Of a stretch of DNA of 64,000 nucleotides, positions 53,346 through 56,431 are shown one piece after another (position 1 is the first letter of the stretch; each line of letters begins with the position of its first letter). The DNA is from Nonlabens xylanidelens. GTDB lineage: Bacteria; Bacteroidota; Bacteroidia; Flavobacteriales; Flavobacteriaceae. The stretch covers positions 439,392 through 503,391 of the forward strand of contig NZ_PTJE01000002.1 of assembly GCF_002934445.1 (NCBI RefSeq), written 5' to 3'. The notes beneath the pieces are model-generated. The model was given only the letters and a program-made list of their open reading frames with translations. It was not told where the DNA came from and ran no database searches. A program made the position numbers and the translations under genes.

Positions 53346-53518
53346 CGATTTATTTTAAAATTATATTTAGCTGTAAATCTACAGTATCTGTGATTTATTT
53401 CTATTAAATTTTTTATAGGCATTATAAAGACTTTAAAAAGTGTGTGATTTCTCTAAATAATCCCATGTAGTAAATTAAGAACATGTACTTTTTTAAGGTT
53501 CCAGAGGTATATAAATTC

Positions 53519-53534
53519 CGCTTTCGCGAAAGCG
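53519..53534. repeat. CGCTTTCGCGAAAGCG palindrome, copy 12
   Basis: This is a perfect 16-bp palindrome upstream of the M28 peptidase gene, in a stretch that is in frame with it but outside its coding part. Confidence 0.9.
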
Positions 53535-53614
53535 TGCTTATAAAGTATCCTTTTAACAATTTCATAGAACATCATAAATTCATAGCTCTTATCTTAGTAG
53601 CTAAATTTTTAAAC

Positions 53615-54955
53615 ATGAAAAACCTATTAATACTATCTCTACTTTGTAGTTACTTATCTATTGCACAAGTACCTACAGACCATCAAATGGACTTATACAC
53701 TATCATTGATGAAGTAAGTGCAGATAGAATCGAGAACGACGTGCGTACACTAGCCGATTTTGGAACAAGAAATACATTTTCTGATACGGTTTCTAACACG
53801 AGAGGAATAGGCGCAGCAAGGAGATGGATCAAGGCACAATTTGATCAAATATCAAAAGAATGTGGTAACTGTCTAGAGGTGTTCTATCAAAAAGATTTTG
53901 TTTCTACTGATATGGGTAGTCGCATACCTAAAGATGCTTGGGTAGTAAATGTGGTTGCTATTCAAAGAGGTACCTCTAGTCCTAATGATATGGTGATGAT
54001 GAGTGGTGACATAGATTCTCGCGCTAGTGATACTATGGACTTTACAACAGATGCGCCAGGTGCAAACGATAATGCTAGTGGTATGGCAGGTACTATAGAA
54101 GCTGCACGAGTTTTGAGCAAACGCAAGTTTAAGAACAGTATCGTTTATGTAGGTTTAAGTGGTGAGGAACAAGGCCTTTTTGGAGGAAAAGGACTGGCCG
54201 AATACGCTAAAAAGAAAAAATGGAATGTCATAGGGTTTTTAAATAACGATATGATAGGAAATATAGAAGGTGTAGATGGCGTAATCGACAACAGGGAATT
54301 TAGAATTTTTTCTGAACCTACAGATCCTACTGAGACAGAACGACAGCGTAATGGTCGCAGATTTTATGGTGGTGAAGTAGATGGAATTTCTAGACAACTA
54401 GCTCGATACATACATAAATCAGTAAAGACTTACATGCCAGAAATGAAGCCTATGATGGTTTATAGACTGGACCGTTTTGGGAGAGGTGGTCATCACAGAC
54501 CTTTTGCAGATCTAGGTTTTCCTGGAATACGAATTATGGAAGCACATGAAAATTACACCCAACAACACCAAGACATAAGAACAGAAAACGGTATAGCATA
54601 TGGTGATGTCGTAGAGCATGTTAATTTCCCTTATGCTAGAAAATTAACTGCTGTAAATGCTATTAACCTAGCTCAACTGGCATGGGCTCCTAGCAGACCT
54701 CAAAATGTTAAAATAGGTGGTATAGTAGAAGCTCATGTGAAATTTAAATGGGACAAAGTAAAAGATGCCGTAGGATATAAAATTTACTGGAGAGATACTA
54801 CTAGTCCTACCTGGGATAACTCGCGATATGTAGGTGATGTAAACGCATTTACTTTAAAAGGAATAGTAATCGACAACTCCTTTTTTGGTATAGCTGCAAT
54901 AGGAAAAGATGGTATAGAGAGTATGGTCAGTTTTCCTAGTGGTACTTTTAGATAA
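53615..54955 (+). CDS. Secreted M28-family zinc peptidase
   Basis: I start at 53615 (MKNLLILSLLCSYLSIAQVP, 446 residues), which gives a clean signal peptide; the in-frame extension back to 53483 runs through a palindrome copy and lacks signal features. The peptidase has the zinc site of M28: GDIDSRASDTMDF, GANDNASGM and LSGEEQGLFGGKGL, then FLNNDMIGN. After the catalytic domain, residues from about 355 form a fibronectin-like or beta domain (KFKWDKVKDAVGYKIYWRDT). It is probably an aminopeptidase or carboxypeptidase in the periplasm or outside the cell. Confidence 0.87.
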   Translation: MKNLLILSLLCSYLSIAQVPTDHQMDLYTIIDEVSADRIENDVRTLADFGTRNTFSDTVSNTRGIGAARRWIKAQFDQISKECGNCLEVFYQKDFVSTDMGSRIPKDAWVVNVVAIQRGTSSPNDMVMMSGDIDSRASDTMDFTTDAPGANDNASGMAGTIEAARVLSKRKFKNSIVYVGLSGEEQGLFGGKGLAEYAKKKKWNVIGFLNNDMIGNIEGVDGVIDNREFRIFSEPTDPTETERQRNGRRFYGGEVDGISRQLARYIHKSVKTYMPEMKPMMVYRLDRFGRGGHHRPFADLGFPGIRIMEAHENYTQQHQDIRTENGIAYGDVVEHVNFPYARKLTAVNAINLAQLAWAPSRPQNVKIGGIVEAHVKFKWDKVKDAVGYKIYWRDTTSPTWDNSRYVGDVNAFTLKGIVIDNSFFGIAAIGKDGIESMVSFPSGTFR

Positions 54956-55100
54956 TTAGATGCTACATGTAAAATAAAAACTATTTAACATGTAGTAATT
55001 ACTCTACAACATGTCTATTAAAGAATATGAAAAATAGGCTTCTTCCCACATAATTAACCATCGTTAAATAAAACTGCTGTTTCACTCTGTTTTTTTAACA

Positions 55101-55128
55101 AAAAATACCCATTAATGGGTATTTTTTA
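55101..55128. terminator. Perfect palindromic terminator
   Basis: The stem AAAAATACCC and its mirror GGGTATTTTT around ATTAAT give a 26-bp perfect palindrome with terminal T-run. It could end the M28 transcript and isolate the downstream RNA candidate. Confidence 0.7.
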
Positions 55129-55156
55129 AAGGTTTAATTAGACTTAATTTTACTCA

Positions 55157-55265
55157 TGTGTTATAGACTAACCAACCAAATAACACAAAGAATTTTAGGG
55201 GGAAGAAAGCTCATTAATAATGACTTTCTCTAAAACTGCCAGATCTAATCTGGCAGTTTTTATTT
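55157..55265 (+). ncRNA. Candidate structured small RNA with three hairpins
   Basis: A near -7 element, TAATTTTA (55145-55152, one base off TAnnTTTG), would start transcription near 55157. Hairpin 1 is TGTGTTAT/ATAACACA (55157-55164 with 55180-55187), with an A- and C-rich loop containing AACCAACCA. A single-stranded G-rich segment (AGGGGGAAG) follows. Hairpin 2 is AGAAAG-c-TCAT/ATGACTTTCT (55204-55229). Hairpin 3 is AAAACTGCCAGA/TCTGGCAGTTTT (55232-55260) with a T-rich tail, a strong terminator. The upstream terminator at 55101 makes this an independent unit. A 25-codon ORF from 55156 to 55233 overlaps it and is the main alternative. I do not match it to a known RNA family. Confidence 0.5.
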
Positions 55266-55381
55266 ACACCTATTTTAAAATATTTCTTATTTTCATTTAA
55301 TTGTAGACTATTTATTTCGTGTATGATATGCGATACCTAGTCTAGTATATCTTTTCTAACTAAGATCTTTTTCAATAATCG

Positions 55382-55389
55382 TATCTTTG
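55382..55389 (+). promoter_or_regulatory. -7 element upstream of the SRPBCC gene
   Basis: TATCTTTG is an exact TAnnTTTG match 19 bases before the ATG at 55409. Confidence 0.55.
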
Positions 55390-55408
55390 ATATATAATTA
55401 GACCCTAA

Positions 55409-56431
55409 ATGAAAGCTTTCAAGTACATTTTTATACTAATATTAATCGTCATCATAGGAGGTGCTATCTATTTTTCATTAAAAGATGGAAAATATGATAT
55501 AACAGAATCTCGTATTATCGCAGCACCACCATCCCTTATCTATGATCAACTAGCAGATTTTAAAGAATGGGAAAACTGGAATCCATGGTTAGAAGATGAA
55601 GAAATAACCTCTACAATGGGTACACAAACTAAAGGTGTAGATGGTAATTATTCTTTTACAGATCCTTATGGTAATGGTAAAATGACTATAACAGGAATAG
55701 AGCCTAATAAGTATGTGGCTATGAATATGTTCTATGATAATGGTATGACAAGTTCTAACAGTGATGTAATCATGGATCTAGAACGCGTCGAAAATGGTAC
55801 TAAAATAACATGGAATATTAAGGGTGAACAAGGTCTATTAGATAAAGTAATGACTACCGTATTAGGCTTTAATATGGAAGATGAAATTAAACCTAAGTAT
55901 ACTGCAGGTTTAGAAAATCTAGACAACTATGTGAATAACCAAATGTCTGTACACCAAGTTCATGTAGACGGTATTATTGAAACTGGAGGTGGTTACTTTT
56001 TATACATGTCATCTAGTACAAAGAGAGAAAAATTGCAAATTGTAAAATCTCAAATGCTTCAAAACATTATGTCTTACATGAATCGCAATAATATCGATAT
56101 GTACGGCATGCCACGTGTGGTATATGAAAAGATAGATCCTACTAATAATAGTGTTTTATTCTCTGCAGCACTTCCTGTTGAAAATAGAGAGATTACTGCT
56201 ACTAACAGTAATATCCTATCTAGTTACCAAGAACCTGGAAAAGCAGTGAAAATCACTCTTAATGGTGCGTATAGTAACCTCGCTGAGGCATGGAGAAAAG
56301 GTGAAGAATTTATATCTCAAAACGGACTGGTAAAAGCAATAGCGTCTCCTTATGAAATATATAAAACGGATCCTATGCTTACTCCTAACCCAGCAGATTA
56401 TCGTACTGAAATTTATATACCTATAGAATAA
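55409..56431 (+). CDS. SRPBCC domain fused to a GyrI-like effector-binding domain
   Basis: The 340-residue protein has an N-terminal membrane anchor (residues 5-24, YIFILILIVIIGGAIYFSLK). An SRPBCC/START-like domain follows at about 33-180 (ESRIIAAPPSLIYDQLADFK, WENWNPWLEDEE). A second domain near 190-335 has the GyrI-like fold (DGIIETGGGYFLYMSSSTKR, ITLNGAYSNLAEAWRKGEEF). Both domains bind hydrophobic or aromatic ligands in their families; no enzyme motif is visible. Its stop is directly followed by the crcB ATG, so the two are translationally coupled. Confidence 0.82.
   Translation: MKAFKYIFILILIVIIGGAIYFSLKDGKYDITESRIIAAPPSLIYDQLADFKEWENWNPWLEDEEITSTMGTQTKGVDGNYSFTDPYGNGKMTITGIEPNKYVAMNMFYDNGMTSSNSDVIMDLERVENGTKITWNIKGEQGLLDKVMTTVLGFNMEDEIKPKYTAGLENLDNYVNNQMSVHQVHVDGIIETGGGYFLYMSSSTKREKLQIVKSQMLQNIMSYMNRNNIDMYGMPRVVYEKIDPTNNSVLFSAALPVENREITATNSNILSSYQEPGKAVKITLNGAYSNLAEAWRKGEEFISQNGLVKAIASPYEIYKTDPMLTPNPADYRTEIYIPIE

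Follow-up and report, generated by a model that had tools for sequence, protein, structure and literature searches.

The question raised by this locus is whether the DNA between two protein genes of Nonlabens xylanidelens holds a gene of its own and, if so, what controls it and what its product does. The whole stretch that was analysed, 64,000 nucleotides, is called the window here, and positions count from its first letter. The left neighbour is an M28 peptidase gene (53483-54955, forward strand). The right neighbour (55409-56431, forward strand) encodes an SRPBCC/polyketide-cyclase and GyrI-like protein, and Pfam and synteny mark it as conserved in that place. An initial annotation, made from the letters of the window, took 55145-55265 for an independent small RNA with three hairpins. 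Comparison with related genomes confirms that observation as a whole and partly supports the interpretation that came with it. In our opinion 55145-55265 on the forward strand appears to be a structured RNA gene in its own right, one of a small RNA family of Nonlabens. Our main reading is that a NarL-type two-component system would control this small RNA, which would act in trans by means of a run of G, and we put the probability of this at about 0.65. The comparison points to the gene, its structure, a fixed operator and promoter, and a link between that operator and a regulator gene.

The RNA is predicted to run from 55157 to 55262 on the forward strand, based on a promoter-position rule and on its homologs. 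The -7 promoter box TAATTTTA (55145-55152, forward strand) is of the type TAnnTTT[AG], and such a box is present in all 20 members that have this stretch of sequence. One further member (G013) ends at a contig end with its promoter outside the sequence, so the promoter counts have n=20. The available text of PMC9723704 supplies, from F. psychrophilum, the rule that the -7 box lies at -12 to -5. This puts the start at 55157, on the opening base of hairpin 1, just where the RNA had been proposed to begin, while the 3' end is taken as the U run of the terminator. The parts that follow are all on the forward strand. Hairpin 1 (55157-55187) pairs the arms TGTGTTAT (55157-55164) and ATAACACA (55180-55187) around a loop with AACCAACC, and it is lineage-specific. 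Next comes the proposed pairing region UUUUAGGGGGA (55193-55203) with the G run GGGGG at 55198-55202. Hairpin 2, with one bulged C, occupies 55204-55229, and hairpin 3 and its U run form an intrinsic terminator at 55232-55261. The predicted transcript is about 106 nt long in the source genome and about 74-115 nt across members. The strand from 55154 to 55264 folds at -32.1 kcal/mol versus -15.6 +/- 3.2 for 200 shuffles (z -5.1), and no shuffle was as good. The G run had been described as a single-stranded segment of five G. In the predicted fold of the source sequence this is right for the first three, which are free (unpaired probability 0.77-0.82), but the last two are mostly paired (0.15 and 0.13) at the foot of hairpin 2.

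Members of the family were collected by DNA search, by a covariance model (R1) built from ten members, and by synteny. Of 23 Nonlabens genomes 21 have the RNA, and in each of them it lies directly ahead of the same SRPBCC/GyrI-like gene. It is missing from G018 although the SRPBCC gene is there (31% protein identity), and in G014 (77% complete) there is no match for the SRPBCC gene. Four weak R1 matches (L075, L078, L079 and L080) were excluded since on inspection they are terminators lacking the core, and weaker R1 rows with no inspected sequence were left out of the member count. A covariance search of relatives at the same position had been suggested as one way to check the RNA; the result is those 21 of 23 genomes, with hairpin 2 and the terminator covarying.

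The covariation was counted over hairpins 2 and 3 in an alignment of the 21 members (A5). Across both hairpins 96.6% of cells are paired, and in 12 of 18 pairs both sides vary: in hairpin 2 this holds for 6 of the 8 pairs counted (95.8% of cells paired), in hairpin 3 for 6 of 10 (97.1%). None of 500 shuffles matched A5 in paired percentage, both-side pairs, both-side cells or covariation score, and 6 of 500 matched it in further pair types. Slid controls on the same alignment were 36-52% paired with scores of at most 0.10. RNAalifold finds the same two hairpins independently, with their ends shifted by a pair. With covariation behind hairpin 2 and the terminator, the structure that relatives keep bears out the idea of an independent RNA with its own promoter, in which a G run and a bulged hairpin are followed by an intrinsic terminator.

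Four or five G stand just before hairpin 2 in every one of the 21 members. In 17 of the 21 these G have a predicted mean unpaired probability of 0.5 or more; the value is lower in G010, G011, G022 and G002, the last of which has a predicted fold that breaks hairpin 2. Hairpin 1 and its C-rich loop, which were originally counted among the parts of the RNA, are there in the source sequence but are not defining parts. The predicted folds of eight members (G005, G004, G016, G001, G009, G012, G015 and G006) have no hairpin before the G run, and CCAACC is found in 5 of 21. Pairing between the C-rich and G-rich segments within the RNA is absent from the predicted fold of the source sequence. In the predicted folds of G011 and G022 the CCAACC bases do pair with the G run, so such an internal contact is possible in some members; in G010 another CC does the same.

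It has also been suggested that the locus is a small mRNA whose 25-codon ORF, from the ATG at 55156 to the TAA at 55231, is translated. The ORF is open in the source genome and begins beside the predicted start site, and ORFs of 16 and 17 codons in G008 and G003 have ILGGRK in common with it where the frame crosses conserved DNA. However, it is not conserved: in 15 of 21 members no ORF spans the G run, and those of G017, G013 and G007 differ in frame or peptide. The ATG lies 1 nt ahead of the predicted start, and the pairs of the RNA covary. We find a translated ORF here hardly credible. Since hairpin 1, CCAACC and the ORF are not general, we take the G run, hairpin 2 and the terminator to be the conserved unit.

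A different objection is that the RNA is only the leader of the gene it precedes. The terminator would usually stop transcription and a signal would give read-through into the SRPBCC gene. That gene is always immediately downstream, 103-233 nt from the G run to its start codon, and the G run of some members can pair with bases that lie upstream of it, which means alternative folds exist. On the other hand, no competing antiterminator was seen by eye. Moreover, 28 loci with SRPBCC orthologs in other genera have neither the core [AG]GGGG[GA] within 500 nt upstream nor the palindrome anywhere in the locus. The downstream gene also has its own -7 box. In the source genome this is TATCTTTG at 55382-55389 on the forward strand, and all 21 members have a TAnnTTTG box no more than 70 nt from the start codon. 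We consider a cis leader unlikely because the SRPBCC gene keeps its own box in all of them, and the claim that the RNA is set off on its right by the next gene's promoter stands.

The left boundary of the RNA is where we depart from the initial annotation. A perfect 16-nt palindrome, TACCCATTAATGGGTA, lies at 55106-55121 on the forward strand and had been labelled a terminator that isolates the unit. The palindrome exists and is perfect, but the label is wrong or incomplete. The gap from TACCC-N6-GGGTA to the -7 box is 23 nt in 19 of 20 members and 22 nt in one, so that palindrome start to -7 box measures 39 nt in 19 and 38 nt in the other. The distance from the -7 box to the G run ranges between 29 and 67 nt (20 members). 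TTTT follows within 10 nt of the palindrome in 10 of 20 members and is lacking in the other 10. Given the near-fixed spacing to the -7 box in 20 of 20 and the lack of TTTT in half of them, the palindrome is best read as an operator, of the form TACCC-N6-GGGTA and centred near -43.5. We predict that it serves a response regulator of the NarL/LuxR type, and it may also end transcripts coming from the left.

The spacing is not peculiar to this RNA. The genus was scanned for TACCC-N6-GGGTA followed at 16-30 nt (15 allowed spacings) by TAnnTTTR, which gave 78 rows, 60 of them at exactly 23 nt. Twenty of the 78 are the RNA itself (19 at 23 nt), and of the 58 other rows 41 also have 23 nt; a few rows have a palindrome in common. 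In a scan of 199 family genomes (25 with a match, TTTG only) 39 rows come from other genera, with 31 at 23 nt, a count tallied by hand from coordinates. All these spacing counts come from related genomes and are not independent. Even so, when a spacing stays the same from genus to genus, it is difficult to account for by anything but a regulator site. One might still argue that the palindrome is only the terminator of the upstream gene and that no response regulator controls the RNA. The source-genome copy is flanked by A6 and T6, half of the members do have the TTTT, and at other loci of the genus (L007-L009) near-identical palindromes come after what seems to be the M28 gene's end; matches to the palindrome are common. 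That argument must contend with a spacing that is constant over 20 loci with differing genes on the left, with the 10 members that have no TTTT, and with the same architecture, which precedes many protein genes and recurs across genera. We regard it as very improbable. The L007-L009 palindromes, which lie at around 1500 in their loci and have A and T tracts, resemble terminators that work in both directions, and one and the same sequence may thus have two functions.

A candidate for the regulator itself is found next to the RNA in many genomes. The link of the RNA's promoter to a NarL-type regulator was unexpected, and we consider it well supported by genome comparison. At one locus (L033, in G008) three genes stand between the M28 gene and the RNA. 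Among them are a histidine kinase gene (TPR, HisKA_3, HATPase) and, after it, the gene of a response regulator with Response_reg and GerE domains (Pfam). The closest solved structures to this regulator include VraR, DevR and NarL. Its ortholog is encoded in 18 Nonlabens genomes at 57-100% identity, and in 17 of the 18 the palindrome comes 14-321 nt after the regulator gene; in the other (G013) the gene sits at the edge of its contig. We also considered homologs in other genera, where 28 loci are among the matches listed. At 11 of these 28 (strict rule) or 17 (relaxed) the operator, 23-nt gap and box stand no more than 300 nt after the regulator gene. Any other spacing tested occurs there in at most one listed locus each, and the antisense strand after the gene gives two or three matches in all among the listed loci, none at 23 nt. 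The arrangement is absent from 11 of the 28 listed loci even under the relaxed rule. Because regulator genes adjoin this arrangement across genomes, we think the L033-type response-regulator family binds the TACCC-N6-GGGTA palindrome. At G133 the order is the end of the regulator, the site, and then an ORF that by eye reads like a kinase.

In three genomes no copy of the regulator gene adjoins the RNA: the source genome (G000), G017 and G010. In G000 and G017, and likewise in G010, the M28 gene is the left neighbour of the RNA. The three L033 genes, for a small protein, a histidine kinase and a response regulator, are missing from 54956-55105 in the source and from the same place in G017 and G010. 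A regulator paralog, 50% identical, is encoded elsewhere in G000 and G017, with no operator-23-box in its locus. G010 has only remote relatives of the regulator (best 2.4e-32), yet it keeps the operator and other such sites, and so another regulator may act there.

Our preferred reading of the mechanism is as follows. A signal would lead the partner histidine kinase to activate the NarL/LuxR-type response regulator, which would bind TACCC-N6-GGGTA at about -43.5 and recruit RNA polymerase to the -7 box. We infer that the gene is transcribed, that the regulator binds directly and that it activates the RNA rather than represses it. The RNA would then act in trans, its G-rich stretch pairing with C-rich sites in mRNAs, and such pairing of the G run probably adjusts the expression of other genes. 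A regulator whose further predicted targets often code for exported proteins would thereby gain a post-transcriptional arm. Among enterobacterial envelope regulators, sigma-E has such an arm in MicA/RybB and OmpR has one in OmrA/B. The likeness is that a regulator of exported proteins would also drive a small RNA; the regulators and the RNAs themselves are unrelated.

Complements of the G-run core with at most one mismatch are not enriched in G000 (6 + 8 versus 14 + 20 in the control), and pairing with the 54 gene starts of the window is not significant (best -16.3 versus a shuffled-seed mean of -16.3). These results make protein titration a serious rival. The RNA could titrate or recruit an RNA-binding protein through its G-run motif instead of pairing with mRNAs. 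The invariant part of the RNA is indeed a short G-rich motif, and neither the complement count in G000 nor the 54 gene starts turned up C-rich targets; against this, each RNA has a single copy of the motif. We judge a protein partner to be improbable as the explanation, though it is the strongest of the competing accounts, and we continue to favour pairing in trans.

The family is absent from Rfam, yet it is of a known kind. Rfam release 15 gives no match at or above the gathering threshold in the 64,000-nt window, and only sub-threshold matches for 54950-55420 when the threshold is relaxed. Neither the RNA nor the operator rule is described in the open-licence literature searched, which does not establish their absence in print. 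The available text of PMC7366714 and PMC11697453 describes GibS and FopS of Bacteroides thetaiotaomicron as small RNAs that act through single-stranded 5' seeds. It gives FopS an intrinsic terminator and ascribes a second promoter motif of GibS, PM2, to an unknown factor. The Nonlabens RNA resembles both in being a Bacteroidota small RNA with a candidate single-stranded seed, and FopS in its intrinsic terminator. It differs from them in that its candidate seed is G-rich, its promoter has a NarL-like palindrome, and it has no Rfam match. Its core has no second copy within one mismatch in the source genome, where the other places match only with two mismatches. The R1' consensus printed in PMC11697453 also looks different from the Nonlabens RNA when compared by eye.

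Closer to home are Rfp18 and other RNAs of F. psychrophilum, which according to the available text of PMC9723704 are likewise independent, structured, from the Flavobacteriaceae and conserved in related species. The type of -7 box is also common to that species (PMC9723704, same text) and the Nonlabens RNA. Rfp18 is predicted there to pair through its third stem-loop, whereas the region proposed for pairing in the Nonlabens RNA is the G-rich stretch. For the operator the comparison is NarL of E. coli, with sites at -40 to -49 (napF) and -38 to -47 (yeaR) in the part of PMC4549865 available. The 7-2-7 site described there consists of inverted heptamers 2 bp apart, with TACCCCTAAAGGGGTA as an engineered example. 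The palindrome TACCCATTAATGGGTA is identical to it at 13 of 16 positions, and its position of about -43.5 is of the activator type. The Nonlabens system is unlike that of E. coli in its phylum, in a kinase with TPR repeats and in a Bacteroidota-type promoter. In the literature surveyed, few small RNAs of the Flavobacteriaceae have a known function or controller. The predicted site of this regulator can be recognised across the family by a simple rule. A covarying structure, a defined promoter and a candidate regulator together make the small RNA, and a larger regulon of exported proteins, directly testable.

How far does the RNA extend beyond Nonlabens? A strict core pattern, run over one genome each of 84,980 species, matched 8 contigs, 7 from Nonlabens and one from 'Flavobacteria bacterium BBFL7' (G008). 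That pattern required five G and GACTTTC, so members with four G or a divergent core could not be found by it. R1, run across 397 family genomes (four of them Nonlabens), gave 10 matches outside the genus with E of 0.0016-0.009. We do not accept these as homologs: they are terminator-like, and in none of the 10 is there a TACC-N8-GG[GT]TA palindrome within 150 nt upstream. Two of them (L041 and L044) do contain a GGGG run. The scan is a weak negative because its strict filters also missed a true member (G012).

The operator extends further than the RNA does. A candidate regulon is apparent in which TACCC-N6-GGGTA lies exactly 23 nt from a -7 box and the genes that follow often encode exported proteins (L235-L274 and L206-L234). 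The fetched loci contain 61 sites with exactly 23 nt, and 41 of them have an ORF of at least 60 aa starting within 60 nt. By a crude test that counts orthologs separately, 35 of these 41 ORFs look exported. Pfam on ten of the site-adjacent proteins gave an outer-membrane barrel, DUF5723, a type IX sorting tail and thioredoxin, with no family for six. This larger regulon is not described in the open-licence literature searched.

Where no ORF lies near such a promoter, other short RNAs follow it. One type, terminator-ended and with UUAGGGAU after the operator-23-box, is seen at L238, L243, L248 and L250 (G010, G011, G005 and G004). Others, also terminator-ended, have GGGG or UAGGGA (L329, L330, L213 in G081, L234 in G075 and L266 in G012), and the GGGG RNAs of L329 and L330 (G108 and G062) directly follow the regulator gene. 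GGG occurs in 8 of 13 other terminator-ended RNAs, versus 3.05 in single-base shuffles and about 5.2 in dinucleotide shuffles, an excess of G runs that is suggestive only. A second model (R2) run on 81 loci had a best E of 0.02, and the only G-run RNA of another genus that it matched was L213, at E 0.57, so the homology of those RNAs is not shown. A tentative idea, to which we would give clearly worse than even odds, is that a NarL-type system kept across the Flavobacteriaceae controls an exported-protein regulon through the operator placed exactly 23 nt from the -7 box and has several times gained short G-run (UAGGG/GGGGA) RNAs. Some of these gained RNAs would directly follow the regulator gene, and the source RNA would be the Nonlabens example. 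If true, this would give the phylum an envelope circuit made of a regulator plus small RNAs. At L228 (G181) the operator-23-box stands directly before a gene that by eye reads like another response regulator, which hints at a cascade. Separately, an inverted repeat, CTTTCGCGAAAG, recurs in Nonlabens, for the most part in intergenic DNA (L072, L073, L141, L143, L144 and L195).
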